Source: Photobacterium sanguinicancri
Lineage (GTDB): Bacteria > Pseudomonadota > Gammaproteobacteria > Enterobacterales > Vibrionaceae
Direction: 5' to 3'
DNA: 64,000 bases
NCBI RefSeq assembly: GCF_024346675.1
Contig: NZ_AP024851.1
Span: 1,054,001 to 1,118,000, forward strand
Part shown: positions 40,059 through 59,542 of the stretch, piece by piece
How positions within the stretch are numbered: position 1 is the stretch's first letter
How the letters are laid out: each line of letters opens with the position of its first letter
Program-made: the position numbers and the translations under genes
Notes under the pieces: model-generated
What the model was told of the DNA's origin: nothing
What the model saw: only the letters and a program-made list of their open reading frames with translations
Database searches by the model: none

Positions 40059-42131
40059 GTGAATATTCTCGTTAGCAATTTAGGCTTTGCCTTTTCAGGT
40101 ATTGGTTTTGTTTTCCTTTTCCTTTTGTTGCTCACAACCAAAAAGCAGAGTTTGCAAAAAAAACTTCTCTACCTGATCTGCTTTTTCGGCGTTGTTTGGA
40201 GCCTCACCTCTTATAGCCAATTTACTGCGCAATGGGGGATAGCCCCTGTCTTACTCGCCGAATCTTGTCTGAACATCGCATTGTTTTTACTACTAACTTC
40301 AAGTCTATCGAACCATCAAACACTGAACAAAGCCATTACTTCCTCCATACAGAGAGGTCTCTTAGCTGCGTTACTCATCATGGCTTCATTAGCAGCAATA
40401 CGTATGTTTTCACCGATTTTAAACCTAAAGCTGTTTCTGTTATTTCATCTTGGTCAGGCAATTATTGGATTATGGGCAACTGAACAGCTCTACCGCCGAA
40501 CACACCGCAGTGAAACATGGGCGATCAAACCTCTCTGTTTAGGATTGGGCGTTTTCTTCGCCTATCATTTTGCCCTTTACTCAGATGCGCTACTAACAAG
40601 TTCAATTGAACGAGGCTTTTGGGTAGGTCGTGGTTGGATCGCGGTATTAGCAATTCCTCTCATTTTATTAACGGCTAGACGTGTATCAAATTGGGGGAGC
40701 CGCGTTTATGTATCGCGTGAGGTCATTTATCACAGCACCTTACTTTTGGTTGCTGGTGGGTATTTGTTAATCATGGCAATCGCAGGGTACTACCTGAAAA
40801 TACAAGGGCAAGCATGGGGGTCCCTAGCCCAGAGCTTATTTTTCGCGTTAAGCGGAATTGTCTTTGCGAGCCTTTTCTTATCAGAATCTTTTCGCAATAA
40901 CCTTAAGGTATTCATCACTAAACACTTCTTTGCTAATAAATATGAATACCGTGTTGAATGGATGAAAGTGGCTGAATTACTCGATAATCAAGACAACTCC
41001 CCCTATGACAGCGCACTTCAAGCTATGGTTAGGCCATTCGGTTGTGAGCAAGCGTTATTAGCCATTCAGGAAAATAATAAATTTAAAATAAAAGCGGATT
41101 ATCAAACAGCAGATAACCACAGTGAAGCACAACAGTTACTCTCACACTTAGCGAACCCTGCCGTTGAGCATCAGTGGATTATTGATATACCGCAGCTAAA
41201 AAGTGGTGGTGAGAAAACGCCTTTTGAAATTAATACGCTAGAGCTTCCTACCCATCACCCTTTTTATTATGTTGTCCCACTAACCTGCTCTACTGGTGTG
41301 AAAGGCGTTTACCTACTGTCTAGGCCAACCTCCACTGACAGATTGAATTGGGAAGACCGTGATTTAATGCGAGCAATCAGCATGCAGCTTTCGGTGTATC
41401 TCAATGTTTACCATACCAACCAAAAACTGGCAGAAAGTCGTCAATTCGATACGTTCAACCGCATGTCTGCTTTTTTAGTGCATGATTTGAAAAATGTTGT
41501 TGCCCAGCTTCAACTCATTAACAAAAATGCCATTAAGCATAGACACAACCCCGAGTTTGTTGATGATGCCTTCGAGACAGTAGAGTCTGCTGTTGGTCGT
41601 TTAAACAAAGTGCTTCATCAACTCAATAATAAACGGCTAGAGAAACAACAAACCCAGTCAGTCAATATCATTGACACATTACAGACCGTTTGTGAGCACC
41701 GCGCGGTTTCCTTGCCCAAGCCAACACTGCAGTTCAATTCAACATCCAATGAGTCAGTGACCTATTATCATTTGTCTGCTGATGCTGATCGATTAAGAAA
41801 TATCTTCGGCCATTTGATCCAAAATGCACAAGATGCAACGCCCCAAGAGGGCGTAGTCACCGTGAAAGCGGAGTTAAAACCAGATTATTTTGTCATCGCC
41901 ATTGAAGATAATGGCACTGGAATGTCACAAGATTTTATTGAATCACGGCTATTTAAGCCCTTTGATACCACTAAAGGTAACGCTGGAATGGGCATTGGTG
42001 CCTATGATGCTAAGCAGTTTATTGAAGACCTTGGCGGCTATATCGAAGTTGATTCTACGCTAGGTAAAGGCACGCGTTTCCAAGTTTATTTACCCGTAAT
42101 AAACGAAAATCAAACCGTCATTGAAAAATAA
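40059..42131 (+). CDS. prsK: PEP-CTERM system histidine kinase PrsK
   Basis: 690 residues. About eight membrane helices fill residues 1-285, followed by a GAF-like linker (~300-450) and a histidine-kinase core. The phospho-acceptor is His475 in FLVHDLKNVVAQL. The ATPase part shows FGHLIQNAQDAT, DNGTGM and GMGIGAYDAK. This membrane-GAF-kinase layout and motif set are those of PrsK. The GTG start has AAGGA 8 bases upstream. It lies 62 bases before prsR; together they control exosortase-linked genes in known systems. Confidence 0.93.
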   Translation: MNILVSNLGFAFSGIGFVFLFLLLLTTKKQSLQKKLLYLICFFGVVWSLTSYSQFTAQWGIAPVLLAESCLNIALFLLLTSSLSNHQTLNKAITSSIQRGLLAALLIMASLAAIRMFSPILNLKLFLLFHLGQAIIGLWATEQLYRRTHRSETWAIKPLCLGLGVFFAYHFALYSDALLTSSIERGFWVGRGWIAVLAIPLILLTARRVSNWGSRVYVSREVIYHSTLLLVAGGYLLIMAIAGYYLKIQGQAWGSLAQSLFFALSGIVFASLFLSESFRNNLKVFITKHFFANKYEYRVEWMKVAELLDNQDNSPYDSALQAMVRPFGCEQALLAIQENNKFKIKADYQTADNHSEAQQLLSHLANPAVEHQWIIDIPQLKSGGEKTPFEINTLELPTHHPFYYVVPLTCSTGVKGVYLLSRPTSTDRLNWEDRDLMRAISMQLSVYLNVYHTNQKLAESRQFDTFNRMSAFLVHDLKNVVAQLQLINKNAIKHRHNPEFVDDAFETVESAVGRLNKVLHQLNNKRLEKQQTQSVNIIDTLQTVCEHRAVSLPKPTLQFNSTSNESVTYYHLSADADRLRNIFGHLIQNAQDATPQEGVVTVKAELKPDYFVIAIEDNGTGMSQDFIESRLFKPFDTTKGNAGMGIGAYDAKQFIEDLGGYIEVDSTLGKGTRFQVYLPVINENQTVIEK

Positions 42132-42193: not shown

Positions 42194-43531
42194 ATGGAAT
42201 CACTACTTGTCATTGAAGACGACCTTGGTATTCAAAAGCAATTAAAATGGTGTTTCACTGACTATGAGGTTGTTACCGCTGGGGATAGAAAAAGTGCAAT
42301 TACTGCGCTTCGTCGCCATGAACCTAAAGTAATAACGCTAGATTTAGGCTTACCGCCTGATGAAACTAATGCATCAGAAGGCTTGGCAACCTTACAAGAA
42401 ATACTTTCTCTTTGCCCTCAGGCTAAGGTTATCGTTATTACAGGGAATGATGATAAAACAAATGCATTAAAGGCCATTGAACTAGGCGCACATGATTTTT
42501 ATCAAAAGCCCATTGATGACGATATTCTTAATATTATTGTGCAACGAGCCTTTATCATCGCCAAGCTTGAAGCTGAAAATACCGCATTAAAAAGTACTTC
42601 TCTTGATGATAATGGTTTTATTGGTACTAGCCCACAAATTCAGCAAGTGTGTCGTATGGTTGAACGTATTGCACCTACCGAAATCACCACGTTGATCCTT
42701 GGGGAAAGTGGTACGGGCAAAGAGGTTATTGCCAGAGCATTACACCAACAAGGCGCAAGAAATGATAAACCTTTCATTGCGATAAACTGTGCATCTATTC
42801 CTGAAACATTACTTGAAAGCGAACTTTTTGGATTCGAGAAAGGTGCATTTACTGGTGCGCATAAAACCACAAAAGGTAAGATCGAATGCGCTGATGGCGG
42901 GACACTTTTCCTCGATGAAATTGGCGATATGCCCTATTCACTTCAAGCGAAAATATTACGTTTCTTACAGGAAAAAGTCATTGAACGAGTGGGGGGGCGT
43001 CAAGAAATCCCAGTCGATGTGAAAATTGTTTGTGCTACTCACCAAAATTTACAAGGAATGGTGGCGGATAAGACTTTTCGTGAAGACTTATTCTACCGTA
43101 TCAGCGAAATTACGATAAATATCCCGCCATTACGCGAGCGCGGCGAAGATGTACTATTACTAGCCCGCTATTTCCTAAATACGGCTAATCAACAAACTCA
43201 CCGCAACCTTTCTGGTTATACCGATGAAGCCATTGATGCATTAATCGCTCACCACTGGCCAGGCAATATTCGGGAACTACAAAACAAAGTGAAATCAGCC
43301 GTTATTATGGCAGATGGAAAACTGGTAACCGCAGATGATCTTGCATTATTTAATTTAAATGAAGAGAAAATCGCGCTTAACCTTCGCCAAATAAGAGAAG
43401 AAGCGGAACGCACAGCCGTACACCGTGCACTTTCTATGAGTGATGGTAATATGTCTAATACCGCTAACCTCCTCGGCATCACTCGGCCAACCCTGTATTC
43501 ATTAATGGATAAATACACCATTCAAAAATGA
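42194..43531 (+). CDS. prsR: PEP-CTERM-box sigma-54 response regulator PrsR
   Basis: 445 residues. Receiver domain 1-120 with phospho-acceptor Asp50 (TLDLGLPP) and Lys in YQKPID. The AAA+ domain (~140-370) has GESGTGKE, ELFGFEKGAFTGA (sigma-54 contact loop) and GGTLFLDEIGDMP. A Fis-type helix-turn-helix lies at the C-terminus (NMSNTANLLGITRPTLYSLMDKY, residues ~418-440). GGAG precedes the ATG. It is the cognate regulator of PrsK and probably acts at the sigma-54 promoter at 39452. Confidence 0.95.
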   Translation: MESLLVIEDDLGIQKQLKWCFTDYEVVTAGDRKSAITALRRHEPKVITLDLGLPPDETNASEGLATLQEILSLCPQAKVIVITGNDDKTNALKAIELGAHDFYQKPIDDDILNIIVQRAFIIAKLEAENTALKSTSLDDNGFIGTSPQIQQVCRMVERIAPTEITTLILGESGTGKEVIARALHQQGARNDKPFIAINCASIPETLLESELFGFEKGAFTGAHKTTKGKIECADGGTLFLDEIGDMPYSLQAKILRFLQEKVIERVGGRQEIPVDVKIVCATHQNLQGMVADKTFREDLFYRISEITINIPPLRERGEDVLLLARYFLNTANQQTHRNLSGYTDEAIDALIAHHWPGNIRELQNKVKSAVIMADGKLVTADDLALFNLNEEKIALNLRQIREEAERTAVHRALSMSDGNMSNTANLLGITRPTLYSLMDKYTIQK

Positions 43532-43578
43532 AATCGATTGCTTTGACTTGTAGAACGACTTGTTGTCGTCTTTACTTA

Positions 43579-43591
43579 CAGTAACTATTTG
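43579..43591 (+). repeat. 13-base shared element, copy 2
   Basis: CAGTAACTATTTG, preceded by TTA where copy 1 has TTG, about 95 bases upstream of the Tat-protein gene. No GG at the -24 position here, so it is not a full sigma-54 promoter. Confidence 0.45.
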
Positions 43592-43684: not shown

Positions 43685-44497
43685 ATGGATAATGAGCATC
43701 AAACTAACAGTAACACCGATGCTAACCACAAAGAGTCAGCGACAAACCTTCATGCAGTCTCTTCAGAAGAAGAAGCCTCACGATTCTCACGCCGTCGGTT
43801 TCTCCGAACATCTGCGGCTGTATCACCTGTGCTGTTATCACTTAAAAGTCCAACAGCTTGGGCGAGTGGGATGGGAGAACAAAACTGCAGTATCATGATG
43901 TCAGGTAATGCGTCTAACCCCCAAAACTGTGTAACAGAACCACTTGCGCCTCGTGAATGGGAAGACATTCTCAATTCTCGCCGAGATTCCCCGCAATACC
44001 CGCTTCGTCAGTCACTAAAAAGTGGTGGGATCAATGGTAACTCCCCCTTCAATGGCAAGTTTTTGCGCCCTTTAAATCAATGGCGTTATTCTCCAACCAA
44101 AGGTTGGATGTTTAAAGTTTCTTTTCGTAAATGCAGCAATCCAAAGTTTAAACAGACACTACGAAACGCACAAAACTCTAAATATAAAATCGCACTCTCA
44201 TTCAAACCGACGTCACGAGAGAAAGGCAAGCAAAAAGAAGATTTTATCATCATCCTTGAACCGCCTCGTTTTCATAACACGGTCGTGACTGCGTATTTAA
44301 ATAGCTACTTTTCACCCAGTTTAATCAGCTATGGCTATTACCCAGAGCAAGTGGAGACATCGGTAATACAAACCATAATGACGAGCGCTAACCTGATAAT
44401 GGACGAATTAAATAAAGGTAATGAACCGAAGAAAAATCTCGCCAGCATCTATCACCCTTTTACTCAGTTAGTGCGGGATTTGAAACGCTGGACATAA
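43685..44497 (+). CDS. Tat-exported protein of unknown function in the HPr-rel-A cassette
   Basis: 270 residues from the ATG at 43685, which has GGGGGA 5 bases upstream (frame open to 43634). A long polar N-terminus is followed by a twin-arginine signal: SRRRFLRTSAAVSP at residues 35-48, a hydrophobic stretch and a cleavage site at AWA-SG near 60. The mature part begins with CSIMMSGNASNPQNC and then EPLAPREWEDIL. The rest is basic, with no recognised domain. It lies 29 bases before the PqqD-like gene, so it is a good candidate client of that cassette (inference). Confidence 0.8.
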   Translation: MDNEHQTNSNTDANHKESATNLHAVSSEEEASRFSRRRFLRTSAAVSPVLLSLKSPTAWASGMGEQNCSIMMSGNASNPQNCVTEPLAPREWEDILNSRRDSPQYPLRQSLKSGGINGNSPFNGKFLRPLNQWRYSPTKGWMFKVSFRKCSNPKFKQTLRNAQNSKYKIALSFKPTSREKGKQKEDFIIILEPPRFHNTVVTAYLNSYFSPSLISYGYYPEQVETSVIQTIMTSANLIMDELNKGNEPKKNLASIYHPFTQLVRDLKRWT

Positions 44498-44526
44498 CAA
44501 TCAACTGAACAATAGCAAGGAATGCT

Positions 44527-44862
44527 ATGACAGAAGCAAGGCAGCTTACAAACAAGGTGAGGTTTCACCCCAAGTTTACTACCAATGAATGTACATTCAC
44601 TGATGGTAAGAATGGGGTGATTTTCAGCCCTGCGACATCCGAAACCCTGCTATGTGAATGCTCAATACTTGACTACATCAAAGCGATAGAAGCTGATTTA
44701 ACAAATCATGCCACCTTATCTACGGCGAACTTAGCGTTAAGCGATGATCAGCGCATTATTATTGAAAAGCTGCTTCACATACGGGTTTTGCTGCCACTAA
44801 ATAGCGTATCACCTGAATTAACACGCCCATGCTCCAGCTTTTCCGCATTAAGCGAGGAGTAG
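44527..44862 (+). CDS. HPr-rel-A system PqqD-family peptide chaperone
   Basis: 111 residues. PqqD-like winged-helix layout: VRFHPKFTTNECTFTDGKNGVIFSP strand pair, ATSETLLCECSI, then a helical part and RIIIEKLLHIRVLLPL. PqqD proteins present precursor peptides to modifying enzymes. This branch is defined by its association with HprK-related kinase A. AAGGA lies about 7 bases before the ATG. The next gene starts 2 bases after its stop. Confidence 0.82.
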   Translation: MTEARQLTNKVRFHPKFTTNECTFTDGKNGVIFSPATSETLLCECSILDYIKAIEADLTNHATLSTANLALSDDQRIIIEKLLHIRVLLPLNSVSPELTRPCSSFSALSEE

Positions 44863-44864
44863 CT

Positions 44865-45833
44865 ATGCCGATTCTAGATCGTTTAAAAAAAATCATACCC
44901 GCAATAAACAAACATTATACTGTTGTGACAGGCCCTTTTATCATGTCGATTTCTAGCCCAGTACCGAGTGTACAACGCTATATCGAAAGCCATTATGCTC
45001 ATAATTTAATTGATTGTAATGACAACACTTTCATTGATTTTGAAATTCAGATTGGTTTTGGGAAAGGCATAAGGCGCTGGTTTCGACAGCAGGCTACATT
45101 CACCTTTAATCACCATCAACCTTTCAAGCCCCTTCCTCTTAATCAAGCCAATGCCATGTTGGAATGGGGAATGAACTGGGTTATTTCCAGTTACGCACAT
45201 CAGTATTTAATTATCCATGCAGCAACCTTAGAAAAAGACGGTAACGGTATTATCATTTCCGCCCCTTCAGGCTCAGGTAAAAGTACACTCTGCGCGTACC
45301 TCGCCGCAAAAGGGTGGCGATTACTCTCTGACGAACTCGCTCTCATCGATCCTGAAACACTACAATTACATGGGCTAGGTAGGCCCATGAACTTAAAAAA
45401 TCAATCTGTTGATTTAATGCGTAATTATTATCCAAAATCTGCTTTTAGCCCTATTATTCAAGATACGCATAAGGGCAAAATCAGCTTAGTAAAAGCACGG
45501 TCTACTTATACTGAGCAATTACCACTCGTTGCAGACCCGAAACTGCTAGTGTTTGTCAATTATGACCCTTCTGAATCTTGTTACGCCGAGCGAGTGACAC
45601 AAAGCCACGCGCTTACTGAGATAATTCAGAACAGTTTCAATTTTGGTTTACTCAACCAGCAAGGCTTTCAAACAGCAAAAGCACTAGTGAACAAAACTAA
45701 AGCCCTCTTTATTGAATATCATAACTTTCAAGAGTGTGAGTCTGTTATCAAGGAGTACCTGGATGAAAGAAGCAGTATCCCAAGGCAACAAAGTGGAAAC
45801 ACTGCCTCTAGTGAATGTGCTCACATCACCTGA
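44865..45833 (+). CDS. HprK-related kinase A
   Basis: 322 residues. The C-terminal half resembles HPr kinase: HAATLEKDGNGIIISAPSG leading to P-loop APSGSGKST (residues 133-141), then LLSDELALIDPET and GRPMNLKNQS. The N-terminal ~110 residues are of unrecognised type. Start 44865 is set by GAGGAG 5 bases upstream. In true HprK the P-loop is the phosphotransfer site; the substrate of this branch is unknown. The 3' end overlaps the nucleotidyltransferase gene by 71 bases, implying tight coupling. Confidence 0.88.
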   Translation: MPILDRLKKIIPAINKHYTVVTGPFIMSISSPVPSVQRYIESHYAHNLIDCNDNTFIDFEIQIGFGKGIRRWFRQQATFTFNHHQPFKPLPLNQANAMLEWGMNWVISSYAHQYLIIHAATLEKDGNGIIISAPSGSGKSTLCAYLAAKGWRLLSDELALIDPETLQLHGLGRPMNLKNQSVDLMRNYYPKSAFSPIIQDTHKGKISLVKARSTYTEQLPLVADPKLLVFVNYDPSESCYAERVTQSHALTEIIQNSFNFGLLNQQGFQTAKALVNKTKALFIEYHNFQECESVIKEYLDERSSIPRQQSGNTASSECAHIT

Positions 45834-46890
45834 AAAGTTGATTCACGCCTCACCTCGTATACAAGCACAAGTGATTGCAGAAGCTCGCTACTTTAATATG
45901 CTCGCTCAGTTAAAGTATGTATGTGAAGACGCCAATATTTGGTACCAATTACCACTTCGCGTCAAACAACACATCCAATCCGCAGAATATTCCTTTAAGA
46001 ACCAAAAACGCCAGTTAGACATCGAGCACGCTGCTATAAAAGAGGCTCTATCTGAACTATCTTGTTCTTGGGTATATTTAAAAGGAGCGGCCTATCAAAT
46101 GCTTGAGCTGCCCGTTTTCTACGGCCGTTTAATGAACGACATTGATATATTAGTACCAGAAGACCAACTAAAGAAAATCGAAACCGCGCTTGGTGATCAC
46201 GGCTGGACACATAAAACGCTCACCGACTACGATGAAAAATTCTACCGTGAATGGTCACAAGAAATCCCACCGCTTAGACACTTTTCTCGTCAGACAGAAC
46301 TAGATGTCCATTTCAATATTTTGCCTAAGCGGCTCAGCCAGTCACCAGCCTCTGCTTTTTTGCTAAAGCAAACCCAGCGGTTAGACAGTGACGAAAATGC
46401 TTATACCCTCACCCCTGCAGCACTGTTGCTACATAGTGCAATCCACTTATTTCACGAGAGCGAATACCACAAAGGGATCCGTGACCTATTCGATATTCAC
46501 CTTCTCATTAAACACTTTGGAACAGACGATGCCTTTTGGTCACAGTTAGTTACCTTGCAAGCGCAACTCGGCAATACTGATAGCACCTTTTACGCTCTGC
46601 ATTTTAGTGAGGCTATTTACCAGACAAAAATCCCTGCTCATATCAAAGCACATTACCAACAATACAAACCGAACATGTTGACACTTATGCTAACTGAGCC
46701 CTCTTTTCATTATGTATTCACATCTATGTATCCACTTCATCACCACTCGGGTCACCATAGGGCTATATCAACGCTCTATCTTCGCGGTCACTTTAAACGC
46801 CTGCCAATTTATAAATTAATCCCTCACCTTATAAAAAAATCGCTTTTAAAACTGTTACCCGAGAAAAAAGAAGAGACAATGTTTGACTAG
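45763..46890 (+). CDS. Nucleotidyltransferase-family protein (HPr-rel-A cassette)
   Basis: 375 residues. The NTP_transf_5 pattern: WVYLKGAAYQMLELPVFYGRLMNDIDILVP, with the Asp pair in NDIDILV as metal ligands, then a second Asp in RQTELDVHFNI. A helical C-terminal domain follows (LLHSAIHLFHESEYHKGIRDLFDIHLLI). Start 45763 has AGGAG about 8 bases upstream and overlaps the kinase gene. It is last in the four-gene cassette. The substrate is unknown. Confidence 0.85.
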   Translation: MKEAVSQGNKVETLPLVNVLTSPEKLIHASPRIQAQVIAEARYFNMLAQLKYVCEDANIWYQLPLRVKQHIQSAEYSFKNQKRQLDIEHAAIKEALSELSCSWVYLKGAAYQMLELPVFYGRLMNDIDILVPEDQLKKIETALGDHGWTHKTLTDYDEKFYREWSQEIPPLRHFSRQTELDVHFNILPKRLSQSPASAFLLKQTQRLDSDENAYTLTPAALLLHSAIHLFHESEYHKGIRDLFDIHLLIKHFGTDDAFWSQLVTLQAQLGNTDSTFYALHFSEAIYQTKIPAHIKAHYQQYKPNMLTLMLTEPSFHYVFTSMYPLHHHSGHHRAISTLYLRGHFKRLPIYKLIPHLIKKSLLKLLPEKKEETMFD

Positions 46891-47784: not shown

Positions 47785-47824
47785 TTTCAGTTAACACGCT
47801 TTACTTGTAGTTATCCATATACTC

Positions 47825-47862
47825 AAAAGCGGCTTCGTATTAACGAAGCCGCTTTTATTTTT
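47825..47862. terminator. Bidirectional terminator between the barrel and ComEA-like genes
   Basis: 13-bp stem AAAAGCGGCTTCG/CGAAGCCGCTTTT, loop TATTAA, followed by ATTTTT on the plus strand. Confidence 0.92.
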
Positions 47863-47882
47863 CTGCCATATAAATCATCAGA

Positions 47883-48566: not shown

Positions 48567-48595
48567 AAATACATCAAATGGCAGACTGGGTGCTA

Positions 48596-49411: not shown

Positions 49412-49451
49412 TCCATGCTCTCTATTCTTAGGGGAAGATAAACCGATAACG

Positions 49452-50187: not shown

Positions 50188-51366
50188 CTATGAATGTGTT
50201 TTCATTAATGCCTTAAACCAATGTTTTTGCTTCAATGGCGAGTTGACCTCTTCATCAATTTCAGCAAGCACACGTTCGCTTGTATTCACATTACCGTCCT
50301 GAGTGTGGCTACCATCGCCAGCATCTTCTGATAACAGTTTTCTTTTTTGGCGGATCATTTTATCTAATTGACGGATCGTGCTAATTTTCCGTTGAATAAC
50401 GTTATCGAGTACAGTGGAAACTTCATCTAACGTTTTAAATACTGCTGCCTGCTTACTATCCTGGCCACTATTCTCAACCGTATTTTGATCATGGTGACTC
50501 TCTGCGGAATTACAATCAGATGCTGTAGCTAATACTGTCGAGGTGGATAACGAGCCTGATAACTCTCCCCCCATCTCTTCTATCACTTGCGCGATATCAT
50601 CGAGCGTAATCACGGTTAGATCTGCCATGAAAGCATAAAGAAACAGGCGGTCAGCAAAGATGTTTATCTTCCGTGGTATTCCTGCTGTATACGTAGCAAT
50701 TTTTTCAAAGATGTCATCATTAAGCTGAGGGTGACCATCCCACCCCACTTGTACCAATCGATGTTTAATATAATCACGAGTTTGTTCTTCGTTAAACGGT
50801 TGCAAATGACACGAGGCAATAATGCGTTGCCTGAATTGTTCCATTTCTGGCAGTTCGATAATCCCTTTAAGTTCTTCTTGCCCCAGCAGAAAACTTTGAA
50901 TCAAAGGCTGATCATCAAGCTGAAAGTTCGACAACATTCGTAACTCTTCTACTGTTTCAGCTGGCAAATTTTGAGCTTCATCGACAATCAATAAGGCTCT
51001 TTTCCCCTGACTATGAAGCTGTAACAGATACATTTCTAACTTTTTCAATATATCCGCTTTGTTCAAACCTTCGACGTCTAAGTTAAACTTGGCGGCAACT
51101 AAACGTACCAATTCATCAGGGGTTAAACGCGTCGTCGCAATTTGGACTGCCACGATAGAGTCATCAATCAGCGATAATAAATTCCGAGCAAGCGTTGTTT
51201 TTCCGGTTCCAATAGGACCTGTAATAACAATAAAACCTTCCCCCTGAGATAAACCGTACTGTAAATACGACACGGCTTTATCATGGTGAGGGCTCGCAAA
51301 GAAGAAACGAGGATCCGGGCTCAACTTAAAGGGCTTATCAGTTAAGCCAAAATGCGATTCATACAT
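50188..51366 (-). CDS. XrtA/PEP-CTERM system-associated ATPase
   Basis: 392 residues. ExeA/GspA-type AAA ATPase: MYESHFGLTDKPFKLSPDPRFFF start, Walker A TGPIGTGKTT, Walker B LLIVDEAQNL, then LSNFQLDD and RQRI (sensor/arginine). The C-terminal ~130 residues are low-complexity and coiled. This is the ATPase always found with exosortase A loci. It follows the outer-membrane protein gene by 2 bases and ends the five-gene leftward operon. Confidence 0.93.
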   Translation of the reverse strand: MYESHFGLTDKPFKLSPDPRFFFASPHHDKAVSYLQYGLSQGEGFIVITGPIGTGKTTLARNLLSLIDDSIVAVQIATTRLTPDELVRLVAAKFNLDVEGLNKADILKKLEMYLLQLHSQGKRALLIVDEAQNLPAETVEELRMLSNFQLDDQPLIQSFLLGQEELKGIIELPEMEQFRQRIIASCHLQPFNEEQTRDYIKHRLVQVGWDGHPQLNDDIFEKIATYTAGIPRKINIFADRLFLYAFMADLTVITLDDIAQVIEEMGGELSGSLSTSTVLATASDCNSAESHHDQNTVENSGQDSKQAAVFKTLDEVSTVLDNVIQRKISTIRQLDKMIRQKRKLLSEDAGDGSHTQDGNVNTSERVLAEIDEEVNSPLKQKHWFKALMKTHS

Positions 51367-51368
51367 AA

Positions 51369-52835
51369 TTAAAAGCTCATTTTTAAGTCATAATAGAATC
51401 GGTTTTCATCATATTCATAAATAGAGGATGAAGACTGTCGGGTGCTATATCTATAGCCAAATGAGGAAGTTAGCTTCTTAAGGTGCTGATAAACAGCGCC
51501 GATATCAAAGGTATGGTAATCATCATTCTGATTAGAGCCATCTAAGCGATCAAAATCGTAGGTGGCGTATTCATAAGCACCGTTAATTTTAAATCGGCGG
51601 GTTAAATTATGATTTCCACTGATTCTTGTACCATATGAACGCTCGTCCTGATTTTCAGAAAAAACAGTTAACGCTTCTTCTTGGCGACCAAAAAGAGAGA
51701 AGCTGTATTGTGAACGTCGTAAATCTAGCGTAGATGTCCAGTCTAATAACCGAACCAGAGTAATATCTTCAGGCCTATCCCCGACAGTAAAATTTGTCCG
51801 ATCAAAACTCACTGGCTCTTCTGTATAACTAACAGTATTGGTGACACGGCGATTACGGTGGCTGAATAAAAACTCGTAAGCATCACCAAAAAATCGCTTA
51901 CCGTATTCTAGGTACAATCGTGTTCTCGGTGTAGGGTTAAAGTTAAGTGAGCCCGCCCAAAAATCGGGATTAACATCATCTTCAGAGAAGTTATAACTTA
52001 GCTCGGCATAAGAACGTTTATGCCAAAAATAACGCACGCCCGGCCCCCAACTGACCGTTTTTCGGCTATTCAAATCACTCGAGCCTTCGAGGTTCTCATA
52101 ATTCAAACGCATCAATGGCGAGAAACCATAAATAGTTTGCAAACCAAGGGTCTCGCTCAATGCGGTATAGCGCGTATCGCCTATTTCATCTTCACGGCCT
52201 TTTTTATAATCATACGACGCATCAATTTGCCAAAAAACGTCTTTGATACTTTGGCCGTTCGCAAAACTTACCGACGCACCATAGCCATTGTAGTCACCGA
52301 TTCTATCGCCACTGCGACTTACCCGAGTGAAGACTCGGCTTTCTAGATCTATTTGGCTTAGAGGATTACTTCTGAATCCAAAACCAATTTCACCACGTTG
52401 ATTTTCTACTGTATTTCCTGAGAAAATATCTGCAGCAGCGTCGTCATCGAGCGATTTAGCCACATTCTGAATACTGGCATTGGCATCAACAAAAAAGCCA
52501 CTATGCGCTATGCCCTTTTCAGCCACAAAGTCTAAATCGTTGTACAGATCATCACGGTCGCTACTGTCGCTGTATAAAAGCTGCCTAATTTGATAATCAA
52601 AATTTAAGTAACCTTCTGTAGCAAGAATGTCGGCTTTTAAACCTGCACCTATCGTCGTGATAAAGCTTGCTGTTTTATCAGGTTCACGGTCAACGTTATC
52701 TGTAAAAACCAGACCAACATCAACACTTGGCGTGAAAGTAACATCAGCGCTGTAACCACTCATCGAAACAAATGACGCAACACCAATAACATATATACTA
52801 GGATTTCTTCGCTTTCGAGTCATAGCCATATCCAT
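51369..52835 (-). CDS. PEP-CTERM system-associated outer-membrane protein
   Basis: 488 residues. Short signal peptide (about 10-29, YSA-DV). The rest is strongly beta with alternating aromatics and ends in YYDLKMSF, a barrel signature. It matches the exosortase-linked outer-membrane family (TIGR03016 type), the likely polysaccharide exit or anchor. In-frame ATGs at 52835, 52829 and 52823 all lie inside the end of the kinase gene, giving a 38-base overlap that implies coupling. Confidence 0.9.
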   Translation of the reverse strand: MDMAMTRKRRNPSIYVIGVASFVSMSGYSADVTFTPSVDVGLVFTDNVDREPDKTASFITTIGAGLKADILATEGYLNFDYQIRQLLYSDSSDRDDLYNDLDFVAEKGIAHSGFFVDANASIQNVAKSLDDDAAADIFSGNTVENQRGEIGFGFRSNPLSQIDLESRVFTRVSRSGDRIGDYNGYGASVSFANGQSIKDVFWQIDASYDYKKGREDEIGDTRYTALSETLGLQTIYGFSPLMRLNYENLEGSSDLNSRKTVSWGPGVRYFWHKRSYAELSYNFSEDDVNPDFWAGSLNFNPTPRTRLYLEYGKRFFGDAYEFLFSHRNRRVTNTVSYTEEPVSFDRTNFTVGDRPEDITLVRLLDWTSTLDLRRSQYSFSLFGRQEEALTVFSENQDERSYGTRISGNHNLTRRFKINGAYEYATYDFDRLDGSNQNDDYHTFDIGAVYQHLKKLTSSFGYRYSTRQSSSSIYEYDENRFYYDLKMSF

Positions 52836-53739
52836 ATCCGTATTGACTATACGCTCCGCGTACGGCTTTATTCATAATAAAACCAATTGCCATGTCCTTG
52901 TTCAACTGCGATACCGCCGCTTTTACATCAGCAATTTTGGTTTTGTCCTGTTCTACAACAATCACGGCCTGCCCCAATAACTTAGATAGGGTGACTGTTT
53001 CAACGACCCCAAGTAATGGTGGGCAATCAAACACAACTACACGATCGCTATATCTTGATGCTAATTCTTTGGCCAAGATTTCCATTTTACTACTTGCGAG
53101 TAGTTCGTTATTTAAATGGTGAAACGCCCCAGCAGGCATCAACTTTAGATTCGGAATTGAGGTGGGATATATAATGTCTGATAACTGAGAAACATTACCG
53201 ACCAGAAAATCAATTAAACCCGGCTTATCTTCAATATCTAAGGTGTGGTTAACACTTGGCTTAATAACATCAGCATCAACCAGTAATACTGTCTTATCTT
53301 TTTCAGATGCTAAGCTAAGCGCTAAGTTAACAGCAGAGAACGTTTTACCCTCATCCGGTAAAGCACTTGAAACCATCACTAGGTTGCCGTTTTTGTGAAA
53401 AGCCGCGCCGCTACCAAATGCATTATCTAACAGCTTTTGTTTGATAGAACGAAACTCATTGTTAATTTTAACGTTAACAGCCTCATCGGTATGCATAACC
53501 ATACCCATGTTTTTTAACCTTTCCGTATCAATAGCAATGGGTTGATGAACTACTGACTCTTTTGCCGTTAGCAACTTCTCCGCAGCATACGAGTCAGCAG
53601 AAGCAGAAACATTGTCCGTCTCTGACGGTATGGCAACTTTAGTCTGAGCCCCTTTTTTTGCATTCATTGCCGCGGTAATGGAATTCGGCTTTGCTGTTGA
53701 CTGGCGATGCTTCCCCATCGCTTTTTCAATGGTACTCAT
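52798..53739 (-). CDS. XrtA-associated tyrosine autokinase
   Basis: 313 residues. BY-kinase: Walker A variant SALPDEGKTFSAVNLAL, A' motif VLLVDADVIKPS, Walker B VVFDCPPLLG. The Tyr cluster YSQYGYGYGYDSK at the C-terminus is the autophosphorylation tail. It lacks its own membrane segment and works with the chain-length protein encoded just upstream, with a 4-base ATGA overlap. It controls polymer length and export by cycles of phosphorylation in known systems. Confidence 0.93.
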   Translation of the reverse strand: MSTIEKAMGKHRQSTAKPNSITAAMNAKKGAQTKVAIPSETDNVSASADSYAAEKLLTAKESVVHQPIAIDTERLKNMGMVMHTDEAVNVKINNEFRSIKQKLLDNAFGSGAAFHKNGNLVMVSSALPDEGKTFSAVNLALSLASEKDKTVLLVDADVIKPSVNHTLDIEDKPGLIDFLVGNVSQLSDIIYPTSIPNLKLMPAGAFHHLNNELLASSKMEILAKELASRYSDRVVVFDCPPLLGVVETVTLSKLLGQAVIVVEQDKTKIADVKAAVSQLNKDMAIGFIMNKAVRGAYSQYGYGYGYDSKAKKS

Positions 53740-55283
53740 AACAACTCCATTAACGACAGAATACGTCCATGAACTGATGGAATCAGGTTCATTAACATAA
53801 AGCCGATGAATATAGTGATTAACCCAACAAGAACGGCACCAAAGATAAAGACTTTACGCTTATTGGTTTTCGTTAACCCTGATTGCTCAGTAGCTGATAC
53901 CGCGCCAAATACAGGTAAATTGGTGACTTGATACAATTGATTAGCTGAAGTAACAACCGGAGAAACTTGGCTACTAAGGAAAGACATCCCTGTTCCAGCT
54001 CCCAGCCCAACAATCAGCACCATGCTCAACAATAATGGTCTTACTGGCCCTGATGGTTCTGTTGGTACACGTGGTGGGTCAATCACCCGAAACTTAATAT
54101 CATCCGATGCGGCCCCTACACTTTGCGAAATAAGCGCAGACTCTCGACGAGACAAAAGTTCTTCATACTTATTCTTCGTAATGTCATAGCTTCGCATTAA
54201 GTTCGTCAACTTAGCTTCTACTTGCGGTAATTTAGCCAGTCTTTCACGTAAAAAAACGACTTTTTCACTAAAACTGGATGCCCGTACTTTTAACGATGCT
54301 TCCTCATTTTCCAGCTGACGAATAATCAACTTCAGGTCATTGAAGAGATTATCACCTCGGCCCCCCGCTACAGACGCTGTTTGTTGTGAGGCTGACTTAA
54401 GGTCTTTCAGGTCCGCGATTTGACGGCGTGTCTCTTTTACATCTGGGTGCTTTTCCGTGAATCGGAACAGCAGTGCATCTAACCTTGTTTCTAGGGCTTC
54501 TAATCGTTCGTCATATTCAGTTCGAATACCCGTATAGTTTTTTGACGCTAAAGAACGTTCGCTGCTGAGCTGAGAACGCGCTGTGACTAACTGCGTTTTC
54601 ACTTCGCGCAATTTGAGCTGAGTTGCTTCTAATTCAGACTCTAACTGCTCTAAACGGTTGTAGTAATTTTGTTCTGAACCCGGCATATAACCAGCATTTT
54701 GCTGTTTAAACAAAGCTAAGCCTGTTTCCGCTTTTAATAAGCGTGTTTCGTAATCCTCTATCTGCTTTGCGATAAACTGGCTCGCCTGATCAGTATCTTG
54801 ACGTTTCTCACCTAATGCATTTTCAACAAACACGTTAAGGGCAGATTGAACAACATCGCGTACATAACGAGGATCATCGCCGGAGTAACTGATGGTAAAT
54901 AAGTTTTCACGCCCTGCAGAACGGATCTTGATATTTGATTTAAGATCTTCCAAGATCTCTTCGTATTCTTCGTTATTTGTCGCTCGAATATCAGCGTCAG
55001 TGTCTCGTGCGATGGTCTCTAAATTTGAGCGACTTAAAAGGGTTTTAACCATTAACGCCACTTCTTGAGAAGGATCCGTTTCGATGGTTAAACCACGTAA
55101 TAAGGGTTGTAAAATAGATCGAGTGTCAGCATACACACGTGCATTGGCGGTGTACTGATTAGGCATCATGGTGACAAATAACCAACCAAGAGGACATATC
55201 ACCCAGGCCGCAATAATTGCATAACGGCGTTTTAACCACACACCGCGAGCATACTGAATCAGAATATCAAGCTGTTCTTGCAT
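53736..55283 (-). CDS. XrtA/PEP-CTERM polysaccharide chain-length determinant
   Basis: 515 residues. Wzz-type membrane helices at about 20-40 and 475-497 flank a long periplasmic coiled coil (~170-380), with the GNVR-like region PRVPTEPSGPVRPL just before the second helix. Start 55283 is set by GGAAGGGAAG close upstream; the frame is open to 55310. It is second in the leftward operon, 17 bases after the export lipoprotein, and overlaps the kinase by 4 bases. Confidence 0.93.
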   Translation of the reverse strand: MQEQLDILIQYARGVWLKRRYAIIAAWVICPLGWLFVTMMPNQYTANARVYADTRSILQPLLRGLTIETDPSQEVALMVKTLLSRSNLETIARDTDADIRATNNEEYEEILEDLKSNIKIRSAGRENLFTISYSGDDPRYVRDVVQSALNVFVENALGEKRQDTDQASQFIAKQIEDYETRLLKAETGLALFKQQNAGYMPGSEQNYYNRLEQLESELEATQLKLREVKTQLVTARSQLSSERSLASKNYTGIRTEYDERLEALETRLDALLFRFTEKHPDVKETRRQIADLKDLKSASQQTASVAGGRGDNLFNDLKLIIRQLENEEASLKVRASSFSEKVVFLRERLAKLPQVEAKLTNLMRSYDITKNKYEELLSRRESALISQSVGAASDDIKFRVIDPPRVPTEPSGPVRPLLLSMVLIVGLGAGTGMSFLSSQVSPVVTSANQLYQVTNLPVFGAVSATEQSGLTKTNKRKVFIFGAVLVGLITIFIGFMLMNLIPSVHGRILSLMELL

Positions 55284-55300
55284 CTGCTTCCCTTCCCTGA

Positions 55301-55960
55301 TTAGAACCAAGCTTCCGGAATAATAATGATATCGCCAGGAAGAATGTCTACATTGGCACGGATTTGACCATCACGAAGTAAATCACCCATGTTCAAACCG
55401 TACTGGCGCTGCTGTCCGTCAACAACACGGATCAAACGCGCATCATTTCCGTCGGCATATTCCGTTAAGCCGCCCACTTCCACCATGACATCTAGCAATG
55501 TCATATTTTCACGATAATTAATCGCTTTCGGCTTTGAAGCCTCACCGATGACACGCACTTGTTCGCTATAAGGGCCAACAAAACCTTGCACGATAACGGT
55601 AACAATAGGATCTCGCACATATTCAGCTAAGCGCATTTCTAGGCTACGAGCTAAGTCAGTTGGGGTTCGACCTGACGCAGGAACATCATCAACTAAGGAT
55701 GTAGATAACATGCCATCAGGGCGTACAGAAAACGTACCCGAGATTTCAGGGTTACCCCATACAAAAATATTCAAAGAGTCACCAGGACCAATCAAATATT
55801 TGTACTGGTTAATATTTTGAGTAAGCGACGCTTGAGGTGTTGTTGAGGGTAACGTGGGTAAGTCGTTAGATGAGCAACCTCCAAGGAACAATACTGTTGC
55901 GCATGCAATCGTACTGGGAACAGTAAGCGAACAACCTTTTTTCTTCATAACAGCATCCAT
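55301..55960 (-). CDS. XrtA/PEP-CTERM polysaccharide export lipoprotein
   Basis: 219 residues. Lipobox FLGGC (Cys29 from the first Met). Poly_export domain: YLIGPGDSLNIFVWGNPEISGTFSVRPDGML (about 55-85), YVRDPIVTVIV, then a SLBB domain (QVRVIGEASKPKAINYRENMTLLDVMVEVGG). It is shorter than full Wza and typical of the exosortase-linked form. ATG 55960 or 55948 could start it. First gene of the leftward arm, divergent from the sugar transferase. Confidence 0.93.
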   Translation of the reverse strand: MDAVMKKKGCSLTVPSTIACATVLFLGGCSSNDLPTLPSTTPQASLTQNINQYKYLIGPGDSLNIFVWGNPEISGTFSVRPDGMLSTSLVDDVPASGRTPTDLARSLEMRLAEYVRDPIVTVIVQGFVGPYSEQVRVIGEASKPKAINYRENMTLLDVMVEVGGLTEYADGNDARLIRVVDGQQRQYGLNMGDLLRDGQIRANVDILPGDIIIIPEAWF

Positions 55961-56190
55961 CCTGCTCTGTTTCGTCCAAAAACCCTAATAAACAAATAAC
56001 TAGGGTGCACTTATTACTATGGTTTAGAAGATGTCATTTTTCCATTGAACTTATTTAACTATATATGATTTTTTTATTTTGCAGATTTTTTATAGTCGTC
56101 AATAATCAATTAGGTAGGTGATGATAAGAAAATATTACGCGCTGCTTATTAGTTGAATTTTAAAGTTACGTTTTATAGGTAAGGATATCT

Positions 56191-57591
56191 ATGTCGCACT
56201 CTCGATTTCACGACTTAAATTTAAGCAATGCCACTCTTATATTTGCTGATATTTTGGTGTTATTCTCTATTTTTACTTTAAGTTTGGTCGGAATTGGCTA
56301 CTTTTCGGCAATATCACTTCCTAATTATGGCGATGCTACTTTTTTTATTCACTTGATCTTATATACCCTTCCTCTCCAGGTTGCATTACTTGCCGTTGGT
56401 TTATATAACGAAAAATTACGAGAAAACTTCAATGGGATCGCTGTCCGATTAATTGTTGCTCTTATTCTCGCTTATGTTCTTGCTAGTGGTTTTTATTTCA
56501 TCCTTCCCATTCCTTACTTGCCAGGACTTAGCCGAGAGTTAATTTTCTTTCTTACTTTCATTGGGTTAATGGCATCTCGCTTTGTCGCCATCTCAAATAA
56601 TTACGAAAAAATAGGGCAAGTGAGAGTGTTGGTGATCGGTGCAGGTGAACGTGCAAGTTTGATTGAAAAATGTATGCGCCGTAAAGCAGACCGTGTTCAT
56701 GTTGATCTTTACGGCTATGTAAAAATTGAAGGTGACAGTAGCCAACATACACCCAAAGGCACGAAATTCGAGCTAGATTGCCCGTTAAACGAGTTTGTCA
56801 GTAAACATAAAATTGAAGAAATTGTCATTGCCGCTGATGAGCGACGAGGAAACCTTCCTGTCGATAGTTTATTCAACTGTAAAATTGAAGGTGTATTAAT
56901 CACAGATATCATTGATTTTATTGAAAGAGAAACCGGACAAATTGCCGTTACACACATTTATCCATCTTGGGTTATATATAACGACAAAAAACCGGCCTCA
57001 TTTATTGCTAAAACATTGAATTGGTTATTTAATAGTTCAGTCGCTGTTTTAATTTTACTCTTTTGTTGGCCGCTTATTTTATTCGCTATTTTATTTATAA
57101 AGTTAGAAGACGGTATTTCATCGCCCATTTTATATTCCCAGCAACGTATTGGTTTGAAAGGGAAACCATTCAAAATCTATAAATTTAGAAGCATGTCCTT
57201 AGACGCGGAAAAAGATGGCATAAAATGGGCAGAAAAAGCAGACCCTCGCATAACCAGAGTTGGCCACTACCTTCGTAAATATCGCATAGACGAGCTACCC
57301 CAACTTTTTAATGTTTTTCGAGGTGATATGTGTTTTGTTGGCCCTCGCCCTGAACGCCCTCATTTTTCAGAACAATTCGAAGAGTCTATTCCATATTACA
57401 ACCATCGCCATAATGTTAAGCCCGGCTTAACAGGCTGGGCTCAACTAAAGTATCCCTATGGCTGTGGCAAGGAAGATGCCATTGAAAAACTAAAGTTTGA
57501 CCTTTATTACATAAAACATCGTAGCTTTATCCTTGATTTACTGATACTCGTGCGCACTTCTGAAATAGTGCTGTTTGGTAAAGGACGTTAG
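56191..57591 (+). CDS. XrtA/PEP-CTERM sugar transferase (undecaprenyl-phosphate type)
   Basis: 466 residues. Four N-terminal membrane helices (about 15-130), a cytosolic Rossmann-like domain (VRVLVIGAGERASLIEKCMRR), a fifth helix (~280-300) and the catalytic bacterial sugar transferase domain: QRIGLKGKPFKIYKFRSM, RKYRIDELPQLFNVFRGDM, FVGPRPERP. It starts repeat-unit synthesis by loading a sugar-phosphate onto undecaprenyl phosphate. First gene of the rightward arm, with a leader of unknown function between the divergent arms. Confidence 0.94.
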   Translation: MSHSRFHDLNLSNATLIFADILVLFSIFTLSLVGIGYFSAISLPNYGDATFFIHLILYTLPLQVALLAVGLYNEKLRENFNGIAVRLIVALILAYVLASGFYFILPIPYLPGLSRELIFFLTFIGLMASRFVAISNNYEKIGQVRVLVIGAGERASLIEKCMRRKADRVHVDLYGYVKIEGDSSQHTPKGTKFELDCPLNEFVSKHKIEEIVIAADERRGNLPVDSLFNCKIEGVLITDIIDFIERETGQIAVTHIYPSWVIYNDKKPASFIAKTLNWLFNSSVAVLILLFCWPLILFAILFIKLEDGISSPILYSQQRIGLKGKPFKIYKFRSMSLDAEKDGIKWAEKADPRITRVGHYLRKYRIDELPQLFNVFRGDMCFVGPRPERPHFSEQFEESIPYYNHRHNVKPGLTGWAQLKYPYGCGKEDAIEKLKFDLYYIKHRSFILDLLILVRTSEIVLFGKGR

Positions 57592-57628
57592 TTCTTGATA
57601 TTCCATCGCTTATTCTAGAGGGCTTGCC

Positions 57629-58561
57629 ATGAATGGATTCACAAATAACATTCTCCCAACAACCAATGCTTTAACCATTGATGTAGAAGATTACTTTCAT
57701 GTTGAAGCATTTTCATCTGTTGTAAAACGGGAGGATTGGGGCAATAAATACCCGTTACGTGTTGAAAAGAATACTCATCGCATTCTTAACATCCTTGATC
57801 AGCATGATGTAAAAGCCACGTTTTTTGTCTTAGGTTGGGTCGCAGAAGCCTGCCCCAATTTAGCACGAGCAATTGTTGCAGGTGGGCATGAGTTAGCGAG
57901 CCATGGTTTTGCCCACCAGCATGCGAACAAACAAACGCGAGAAACATTCAAACAAGATATATGTCGCAGTAAGCAGCTACTCGAAGATCAATCTGGTATG
58001 CGCGTTCATGGCTACCGTGCACCCAGCTTTTCAATTGGGCTAGATAACACTTGGGCTTTTGAAGAATTACAACAAGCGGGCTTTAGCTACACTAGCAGCA
58101 CTTATCCTGTTAAACACGATATTTACGGCACACCAGAGTGGCCTCGATTTAAGCATCAACGCCAAGAAGGGATTATCGAAATTCCAATTCCAACACTCAA
58201 TGTACTAAATCGAAATGTACCCATTGGTGGTGGTGGATATTTTCGACTGTACCCATATGCTTTAAGTCGCTATTTCATAGAGCGTTTCAGGCAACAAACT
58301 CAACAGCCTTTCAGTTTTTATTTCCATCCGTGGGAAATTGACCCTATGCAACCACAAATGCACGGTATTTCAATAAAATCTCGCGTACGGCACTACTTGA
58401 ACTTGAATCGTATGGAAGCCCGTCTTCATCGGCTCCTCCGCGATTTCCAGTGGGACACAATGTACAACACCTATCAATTACATGGATTAGTAAGCGATGA
58501 AAAATCTAGCAATCAGGAAGATAGCAGACAACGACTTTCCAGCTTGGGACAATTACGTTGA
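57629..58561 (+). CDS. XrtA/PEP-CTERM polysaccharide deacetylase
   Basis: 310 residues. The NodB-like start is ALTIDVEDYFHVEAFSSV. Metal-binding His lie in ELASHGFAHQH, the catalytic region in VHGYRAPSFSIG, and FSFYFHPWEIDP near the C-terminus. It removes acetyl groups from N-acetyl sugars of the polymer. GAGGG lies 7 bases before the ATG. It overlaps the FemAB-like gene by 65 bases. Confidence 0.93.
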   Translation: MNGFTNNILPTTNALTIDVEDYFHVEAFSSVVKREDWGNKYPLRVEKNTHRILNILDQHDVKATFFVLGWVAEACPNLARAIVAGGHELASHGFAHQHANKQTRETFKQDICRSKQLLEDQSGMRVHGYRAPSFSIGLDNTWAFEELQQAGFSYTSSTYPVKHDIYGTPEWPRFKHQRQEGIIEIPIPTLNVLNRNVPIGGGGYFRLYPYALSRYFIERFRQQTQQPFSFYFHPWEIDPMQPQMHGISIKSRVRHYLNLNRMEARLHRLLRDFQWDTMYNTYQLHGLVSDEKSSNQEDSRQRLSSLGQLR

Positions 58562-59537
58562 TAACCATGACGACGGTAGCTTTTTTCATCTAACGGGGTG
58601 GCAACATGTTATCAGTAAAGTTTTTGGTCATCGTCATCACTATTTATTAGCGGAAAATGATGATCAGCTTGTCGGCATATTGCCGCTTTTTGAGCAAAAA
58701 AGTCGATTGTTTGGTCATGCGCTAGTCTCGACCCCTTTTTGCGTTTACGGCGGTGTTATTGCCGATGATGATGATGTTAGAAAAGCATTAGAAAAAGCAG
58801 CTTATGAACTAGGATGTTCACTCAATGTTGATTACATTGAGCTAAGGGACAAAGAGAATAAAGAAAGTGAAGAACCTTGGCAGCCACATTGTCATCACGC
58901 AACGTTCTCATGTGCGCTCGAAGCTAACCCTGATGCCATCCTCTCGACGGTTAAACGTAAACAACGCGCTGTTATTCGCCAATCTAATAAAAACAGCTTA
59001 CACGCAGATCTAACAAATAACCCTGAACTTTGTTATCAAGTATATGCTGAATCAGTCCGAAATTTGGGTACACCTGTTTTTAACAAAGCGCTTTTTAGTG
59101 AATTAAAACAAACTTTTGGCGAACGTTGTGAAACGCTCGTTATTAGGGATAGCAACAATGTCCCTGTTTCGAGCGTTTTAAGTTTTTACTACAAAAAACA
59201 AGTCCTTCCCTATTATGGCGGCGGTACAACACAAGCCAGACAGCTAAAAAGTAATGACTTTATGTACTACCAGCTCATGTGTGAAGCCCAGAAAAAAGGG
59301 GCTGACGCTTTTGATTTTGGTCGTAGCAAAATTGACTCTGGCGCTTATCAATATAAACGTCACTGGGGAATGGACGAAAAACCATTGCACTATCGCATTG
59401 CCCTTGTTAACGCAAAATCTCTCCCTAACTTATCGCCAAACAATCCAAAGTATCGTTTTTTCATCCAAGCATGGCAAAAACTGCCACTCGGCATTAGTCG
59501 CCAATTAGGGCCAATGTTATCGAAGTATTTAGGGTGA
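58497..59537 (+). CDS. FemAB-family XrtA/PEP-CTERM system protein
   Basis: 346 residues. GNAT/FemAB fold in two halves: DDGSFFHLTGWQHVISKVFGH, LLAENDDQLVGILPLF, and then SVLSFYYKKQVLPYYGGGT, YQLMCEAQKKGADAFDFGRS. The family transfers aminoacyl or acyl groups; its exosortase-linked branch is of unknown reaction. The start lies within the deacetylase gene (65-base overlap), which implies coupling. Confidence 0.92.
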   Translation: MKNLAIRKIADNDFPAWDNYVDNHDDGSFFHLTGWQHVISKVFGHRHHYLLAENDDQLVGILPLFEQKSRLFGHALVSTPFCVYGGVIADDDDVRKALEKAAYELGCSLNVDYIELRDKENKESEEPWQPHCHHATFSCALEANPDAILSTVKRKQRAVIRQSNKNSLHADLTNNPELCYQVYAESVRNLGTPVFNKALFSELKQTFGERCETLVIRDSNNVPVSSVLSFYYKKQVLPYYGGGTTQARQLKSNDFMYYQLMCEAQKKGADAFDFGRSKIDSGAYQYKRHWGMDEKPLHYRIALVNAKSLPNLSPNNPKYRFFIQAWQKLPLGISRQLGPMLSKYLG

Positions 59538-59542
59538 ACACT

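Follow-up and report, generated by a model that had tools for sequence, protein, structure and literature searches.

The stretch of DNA considered here (hereafter the window, 64,000 nucleotides of contig NZ_AP024851.1 of Photobacterium sanguinicancri) contains, beside an XrtA/PEP-CTERM polysaccharide locus, four genes in tandem that encode a protein with a twin-arginine translocation (Tat) signal (the client), a PqqD-like protein, an HprK-related kinase and a nucleotidyltransferase of family PF14907. Many bacteria carry this four-gene set, and the Tat protein is very probably the substrate or partner of the cassette. With confidence that is about evenly balanced, we propose that the cassette carries out a serine phosphorylation guided by a RiPP recognition element (RRE; RiPP, ribosomally synthesized and post-translationally modified peptide), in which the Tat signal region serves as leader, and that the phosphate is then extended, all of it before Tat export.

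Layout and Conservation of the Cassette

The client gene (43685..44497, plus strand) is an open reading frame (ORF) of 270 amino acids counted from its ATG, with an in-frame TTG also present at 43634, and belongs to a family without a name. It is followed on the same strand by the PqqD-like gene (44527..44862; 111 amino acids), the gene of HprK-related kinase A (TIGR04352; 44865..45833) and the PF14907 nucleotidyltransferase gene (45763..46890). A previous reading of the window from its sequence alone (the sequence-only reading) had listed the same four genes with a 29-base gap between client and PqqD-like gene, a 2-base gap between PqqD-like gene and kinase, and a 71-base overlap between kinase and nucleotidyltransferase; all of these values were reproduced from the ORFs of the window.

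Conservation was assessed in 80 loci retrieved by one scan with the window kinase, mostly from Gamma- and Betaproteobacteria. Because this first sample and the client profile both derive from relatives of the window kinase, a second sample was examined, consisting of the 30 loci (L082-L111) with the best TIGR04352 scores among the 41 genomes that exceed the TIGR04352 cut-off in a set of 369 genomes drawn across the class; chosen by kinase score, it represents the core of the family. In the first sample, a PF14907-like gene lies directly downstream of the kinase on the same strand in 75 of the 80 loci, the other five being three contig ends (L036, L041, L064) and two odd loci (L078, L080). A PqqD-like gene is present in 73 (profile matches with E up to 0.023) and a client-family gene in 74. 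The six loci without a client comprise a contig end (L025), two cut contigs of the type whose client lies downstream (L041 and L063), L078 and L080, where the remaining cassette partners are missing as well, and L007 from Vibrio hannami. L007 is the one locus that is uncut and has both a PqqD-like and a PF14907 gene yet no client in reach; the client of V. hannami was found elsewhere in its genome (L174:1372-2148). In L037 and L047 the client lies downstream of the nucleotidyltransferase, which indicates that its position varies while its membership stays.

All 30 loci of the second sample match the client profile and hold PqqD-like and PF14907-like genes, the latter on the kinase strand in 28 and on the opposite strand in L105 and L107; the clients of L106 and L111 are identical to those of L049 and L020 of the first sample. 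Across the 369 genomes, a client match occurs in 39 of the 41 kinase-positive genomes versus 12 of the 328 others, the two kinase-positive genomes without one being G259, where the kinase is near a contig start, and G303. The four-gene arrangement is not due to chance, and the expectation of the sequence-only reading that the Tat gene is a conserved partner of the kinase is borne out in both samples, in which the gene is far from absent from most loci. Separately, three loci (L076, L028 and L081) hold two client genes each, with the second copy on the opposite strand in L028 and L081.

A Serine Motif at the Mature N-Terminus of the Client

The client family was aligned with 70 members (alignment A1), the window copy being used instead of the near-identical L002; four of the 80 loci gave no upstream pick (L005, L025, L079, L080) and six wrong-gene picks were left out (L007, L037, L041, L047, L063, L078). 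These proteins span 169-299 amino acids and share a mean column identity of 14%. With the window client as reference, R37 and S73 are invariant, and R36, S69, S77 and N206 (besides M1) are kept in at least 90%; the arginine pair is present in 69 of the 70 clients and is replaced by KRK in L052. The client appears to be a Tat substrate, as it has the twin arginine, the hydrophobic region and the small-residue site at which cleavage is predicted. No Pfam model names the 70 clients, among which one member weakly matches one family, and NCBIfam recognizes only general Tat-signal or TAT-target models, in five and three members respectively.

The conserved serines form a motif, S69-x3-S73-x3-S77 (SIMMSGNAS; 43889..43915, plus strand), placed at the mature N-terminus. 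Exact S-x3-S-x3-S is found there in 60 of the 70 clients versus 1.3-1.7 expected from shuffled mature sequences; a comparison stretch farther from the N-terminus holds it in one of the 70. Of the 30 second-sample clients, 22 have the exact motif and five a near form (L084, L086, L087, L091, L096). The AlphaFold model of the window client shows a mostly confident body from about residue 85 to residue 270, while residues 53-77, which include the three serines, have a pLDDT below 50; the serine stretch is thus probably flexible or disordered, ahead of the folded body. As the most conserved residues of the family fall within this probably disordered stretch, their conservation is best explained by recognition or modification, and we regard the serines as somewhat more likely than not to be the modification site, S73 being the first choice. 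The motif is flanked by two cysteines in 44 of the 70 clients when the last spacing is allowed some freedom, and no cysteine just precedes it in 24. The C-x4-SGNAS segment put forward by the sequence-only reading was therefore rejected as a general signature, being too narrow: CSIMMSGNAS does correspond to the conserved feature of the family, of which the general form is S-x3-S-x3-S after the signal peptide.

Two side observations concern the client body and its minimal size. The body is a divergent copy of a '[ST]PGYWK ... RH..AA.LNA' module (L175, L176, L177, L178), which sits near the C-terminal end of larger proteins, some of them with signal peptides; NCBIfam offers no name for the module proteins L176 and L178. 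At the other extreme, L105 (G057; 778-1008) encodes a client of 74 amino acids, with about a dozen mature residues including SACISCNAS, beside a kinase that scores 366.9 bits against TIGR04352; this single case may be a minimal client or a decayed gene.

The Signal Region and Its Small-Peptide Relatives

The twin arginine, R36-R37, opens a conserved signal region (43790..43870, plus strand) that includes SPVLLSLKSPTAWA in the window. Beyond the arginines, many clients keep a stretch like TLASRPVWA ahead of the likely cleavage site. The client profile also matches short frames with the rough consensus SRRxFLKKxAYVAPAxLTLxAxPAxA, closely followed by GS, which adjoin kinases below the TIGR04352 cut-off; what clients and small peptides share in this profile is the signal region and the stretch directly behind it. 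A pattern of the signal region fits 40 of the 70 clients, 11 of 16 small peptides and none of 26 other Tat signals from the class-sample genomes (27 controls, of which L152 was dropped). This result is suggestive only, because the pattern was derived from the clients themselves and it was the client profile that led to most of the small peptides. Given its conservation and its likeness to the signal region of small peptides that lie next to related kinases, the region is on balance likely to be the leader of the system.

The small peptide, the kinase, the PqqD-like gene and the PF14907 gene are all present in L114, L119, L129, L131 and L138, while the remaining small-peptide loci hold fewer partners, partly owing to contig ends. 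In L129 and L131 the order (small peptide, fused PqqD-kinase, PF14907 gene) matches the window, except that a peptide of 90 and 71 amino acids, respectively, takes the place of the large client. Small Tat peptides were seen in L112-L119, L129, L131, L136 and L138; they are 56-90 amino acids long, except for one of 149, most of them have GS right after the signal, and they lie mostly beside HprK-like, PqqD-like or PF14907 genes. L116 carries three in tandem. These peptides look like RiPP-type precursors without a family name.

NapD and DmsD are Tat proofreading chaperones, and a PqqD-like protein acting in the same manner would hold the signal until the client has folded, with kinase and transferase regulating release through the chaperone or the signal and with no lasting tag on the exported protein. 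The conservation of the signal region past the twin arginine and the large folded body of the client fit such a role. The conservation also peaks on serines of the mature part instead of on the signal alone, and related cassettes serve short peptides that have no body to be proofread, so that we consider proofreading an improbable account of the cassette.

The Kinase, the Nucleotidyltransferase and the PqqD-Like Protein

The window kinase scores 298.8 bits against TIGR04352 (HprK_rel_A; curated cut-off 200) and is 99% identical to the kinase of the P. sanguinicancri locus L002. In an alignment of 81 kinases, the P-loop lysine and serine, a histidine, an Asp-Glu pair and one arginine are kept in 79-81 members, the window residues H118, K139, S140, D156 and E157 being kept in 79-80. 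The nucleotidyltransferase matches PF14907 (NTP_transf_5) with 138.7 bits (Pfam gathering cut-off 31.2); D126 and D128 of its D-x-D pair are kept in 75 of 76 transferases and D181 in all 76. Judged from these residues, both cassette enzymes look active. A His-Lys-Asp-Asp set has been described in lasso-cluster kinases (PMC9266682), compared with which the cassette kinases would have glutamate as the last residue. Separately, L125 and L134 hold HprK-like kinases below the TIGR04352 cut-off within far longer frames (ORFs of 802 and 642 amino acids), which possibly reflect fusion to other domains.

The closest precedent comes from lasso peptides. In lasso clusters, HprK-type kinases have been reported to phosphorylate the precursor on its C-terminal serine, and the kinase PsmK and the nucleotidyltransferase PsmN of pseudomycoidin have been reported together to yield phosphoserine bearing one or two hexoses (PMC9266682, PMC8498205). 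Our proposal of RRE-guided phosphorylation and extension rests on the presence in the window of the same functions as those of the pseudomycoidin enzymes, here around a Tat client. A sugar as the end product is held with less confidence than the serines as the site. In a doubtful though serious alternative, substrate and kinase are the same and the transferase adds a nucleoside monophosphate or a phospho-alcohol to phosphoserine or serine, so that the tag would be a pyrophosphate or a phosphodiester and not a hexose. This accords with PF14907 being a nucleotidyltransferase family whose D-x-D and third aspartate are kept here, and with the possibility, raised in PMC9266682, that PsmN is a true nucleotidyltransferase; against it, pseudomycoidin, the sole tested system of the kind found, gives a hexose on phosphoserine according to the published accounts.

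As for the third partner, the predicted structure of the window PqqD-like protein resembles RiPP recognition elements and has their winged-helix fold, and the protein is a probable RRE on the basis of this model and of its relatives' profile matches. TIGR04353 ('HPr-rel-A system PqqD family peptide chaperone', PqqD_rel_X) is matched by 22 of 37 proteins in the same position, and two of the 37 weakly match the HvfC RRE model. In L041, L063 and L129, the PqqD domain and the kinase are fused in one reading frame. The sequence-only reading had called the protein a PqqD-type chaperone, and this agrees with the RRE-like look of the predicted structure, though the window copy itself matches no family model. 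An RRE would imply a peptide substrate.

Promoter Motifs and Linkage to XrtA

Within 300 bases upstream of the client gene, a sigma-54 -24/-12 element that agrees with the consensus at 9 or more of 12 positions was found for 52 of 70 clients versus 3.7 in shuffled sequences. Of 923 other ORFs in these loci, which were selected for a length of 100 amino acids or more and are not annotated genes, 79 have the element upstream, as do 7 of 79 kinase genes, an enrichment with a Fisher p of 3e-35, uncorrected for kinship. These promoter sets hold both the window and L002, with L072 excluded for its proximity to a contig end. A second motif upstream of the -24/-12 element, TGTC-N8-TTAC in sense with a consensus near TGTCGAAAATTTTTTACA, emerged from an open word-pair search; it is exact in 40 of the 70 clients, both elements occur in 37 and neither in 15. 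Haft and colleagues described PEP-CTERM genes as preceded by a 17-base motif ending in TTTACA, a spacer of about 63 bases and a -24/-12 element; the protein that they predicted to bind the upstream motif is the PrsR regulator (PMC1569441). The RpoN dependence of one PEP-CTERM gene has been shown experimentally (PMC9850573). The promoter pair of the clients appears to be the same as the one described by Haft and colleagues, which would place many client genes in the PEP-CTERM regulon.

Exosortase A exceeds its cut-off in 35 of the 41 kinase-positive genomes versus 38 of the 328 others, a contrast whose p-value is inflated by shared ancestry. The other six kinase-positive genomes show a weaker exosortase match (G008, G186, G249) or none at E 1e-25 (G052, G057, G286), and the idea that the cassette is XrtA-specific was accordingly rejected. 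Kinase and XrtA share a contig in 14 genomes, at most 110 kb apart in 12 and more than 2 Mb apart in two, and lie on differing contigs in 21; G091 was left out of this count, as its exosortase, 39.7 kb away, is below the cut-off (192 bits). Among the ten small-peptide genomes, XrtA exceeds the cut-off only in G167 and G205 and does not in G022, G036, G101, G184, G194, G285, G318 and G360, which suggests that the link to XrtA goes mainly with the large clients.

The position of the cassette within an XrtA polysaccharide region, rich in sugar-handling enzymes, could also mean that kinase and transferase act on other targets, such as polysaccharide-pathway sugars or HPr-like proteins, the client being merely co-expressed. 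We think this very improbable: G052, G057 and G286, which lack an XrtA match at E 1e-25, keep both the client match and the neighbouring PqqD-like gene (L088, L105 and L094), and an RRE points to a peptide substrate.

Proposed Mechanism

ATP is available only on the cytoplasmic side and Tat transports folded proteins; the proposed modification would precede export. In the proposed sequence of events, the PqqD-like protein would bind the nascent client at its N-terminal Tat signal region, making this region an export signal and a RiPP-like leader in one, and would present the flexible serines behind it (S69, S73 and S77) to the kinase. The kinase would phosphorylate a client serine with ATP in the cytoplasm, and the PF14907 enzyme would extend the phosphate, with a hexose if the pseudomycoidin precedent holds. 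The folded and tailored client would leave through Tat and have its signal cut, so that the tag would end up outside, at the mature N-terminus. In many genomes the client would be expressed together with the PEP-CTERM/XrtA exopolysaccharide programme, and its product would probably work in or on the matrix. The sequence-only reading had also placed a modification of a folded protein before Tat export; of this, the Tat protein has proved to be a conserved partner and the small protein to be RRE-like in its predicted structure, and the phosphorylation would follow by analogy with the lasso-cluster kinases.

Several observations weigh against this proposal. The PqqD label is the weakest part of the gene assignments: the window protein matches no Pfam or NCBIfam model, including TIGR04353 (E 0.1), and scores just 2.7 bits against an independent profile built from 31 proteins that occupy this position in genera other than Photobacterium, Vibrio and Neiella. 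A better earlier score was set aside, as that profile can contain the near-identical copy L002. Two other Photobacterium copies, L006 and L004, which are 22% and 27% identical to the window protein, do match the independent profile (E 9e-5 and 5e-4, for 1000 sequences). The structural matches of the model have middling Z scores, 8.0 and below, and a non-RiPP protein, MINA53, is among them at Z 7.5. On the client side, SLKSPTAWA of the window falls outside the strict signal pattern, itself read off the clients, and the serine motif is missing in three of the 30 clients of the second sample (L092, L094, L107), so that some systems at least must use another site. Among 20 loci fetched by kinase matches below the cut-off, only four have a small Tat peptide, with one of KR type in L127, and a Tat client for every HprK-like kinase was rejected on these grounds. 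That PsmN is a PF14907 member is an assumption, and according to PMC9266682 it may be a true nucleotidyltransferase, with the sugar then supplied by a host enzyme. With regard to co-expression, a sigma-54 promoter was searched for upstream of the window client and no -24/-12 element was found there. The upstream-motif match of the window (TGTAA-N8-GACA on the minus strand, 43560..43583) is weak: against a motif built without the window it scores 15.5 bits, and 4 of 10 shuffled windows score as high. A score of 19.3 bits was discarded because its matrix included the window's own site. The Photobacterium loci L003, L004, L006 and L009 have neither promoter element. In such cases transcription of the client gene may come from prsK-prsR instead, whose end lies 153 bases before it.

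Were the proposal of RRE-guided modification before export true, peptide tailoring of this type would extend to entire exported proteins, whose Tat signal region would act as leader, and a large nameless family of exported proteins would offer three defined serines at which to test for a tag. The XrtA/PEP-CTERM polysaccharide programme would acquire a second output class beside PEP-CTERM proteins, and the cassette would be a natural tool with which exported proteins could receive phospho- or phosphoglycosyl tags at the N-terminus. As to the role of the tag, our guess, and an unlikely one, is that a phosphosugar on the mature N-terminus covalently links the client to the XrtA exopolysaccharide or its precursor, by a Tat-routed path parallel to the exosortase in which the signal doubles as RiPP leader. 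Short peptides and large proteins would then be interchangeable, with enzymes that read just the signal and the serine.

Relation to Known Systems

Systems of signal-peptide RiPPs with DUF2063-type RREs (DUF2282 precursors) use other enzymes than the cassette. They resemble it in having a precursor with an export signal adjoining an RRE protein, and differ in that the signal is of Sec type and that their description reports no RRE motif, in contrast to the conserved signal region of the cassette clients (PMC12710340). Phosphoglycosylated lasso peptides (pseudomycoidin with PsmK/PsmN; paeninodin with PadeK) are alike in that an HprK-type kinase and, for pseudomycoidin, also a nucleotidyltransferase modify a ribosomal precursor on one of its serines, and in that their clusters employ RRE proteins, as far as the published accounts describe them. 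The cassette differs in its substrate, a Tat-type protein with a folded body whose serines lie near the mature N-terminus, not at the C-terminus. PEP-CTERM/exosortase A systems share with many client genes the promoter type (PMC1569441), the genomes and often the neighbourhood. PEP-CTERM proteins carry a C-terminal PEP motif, a hydrophobic helix and a basic tail, from which the clients differ by their Tat-type signals: none of the 70 has PEP in its last 40 residues or a C-terminal hydrophobic run.

The existence of the HPr-rel-A system is already known, as NCBIfam names its kinase and PqqD partner (TIGR04352, TIGR04353). Compared by model names, the window has the same kinase family; it differs in that NCBIfam has no client model beyond the general Tat-signal ones. 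The claim of the sequence-only reading that the biochemistry is undescribed holds in that literature searches of open-licence papers came back empty; it is too broad in that NCBIfam names the system and that tailoring by kinase and nucleotidyltransferase is known from lasso peptides. Neither the families searched nor those literature searches turned up the client family, its serine motif, the related small peptides or the link to the regulon.

Genomic Surroundings in the Window

Upstream of the client lie the genes of the XrtA/PEP-CTERM system histidine kinase PrsK (40059..42131, plus strand; TIGR02916, 629.1 bits) and, just before the client, of the PEP-CTERM-box response regulator PrsR (42194..43531, plus strand; TIGR02915, 720.5 bits). 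The XrtA/PEP-CTERM exopolysaccharide locus (50188..62159) comprises an ATPase, an outer membrane protein, a tyrosine autokinase, chain length and export functions, glycosyltransferases, a deacetylase, FemAB and exosortase A, the last being the frame that starts at 60750. No lasso cyclase or B2 protease, by which lasso clusters differ from the cassette, is among the tested neighbours (PrsK, PrsR and the genes of the XrtA locus), the stretch 47170-50024 having been read as ORFs only.

The best PEP-CTERM-type upstream-motif match of the window (21.4 bits, with the client site left out) lies in the region 39360-39467, where a near-perfect sigma-54 element, TGGCACTGAGCTTGCA, follows at 39452-39467, about 70 bases after the motif match. 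What comes after this element is not a PEP-CTERM gene, only an ORF of 68 amino acids (39687-39893) and then PrsK, and the promoter may belong to a small RNA, to a small protein or to prsK itself.

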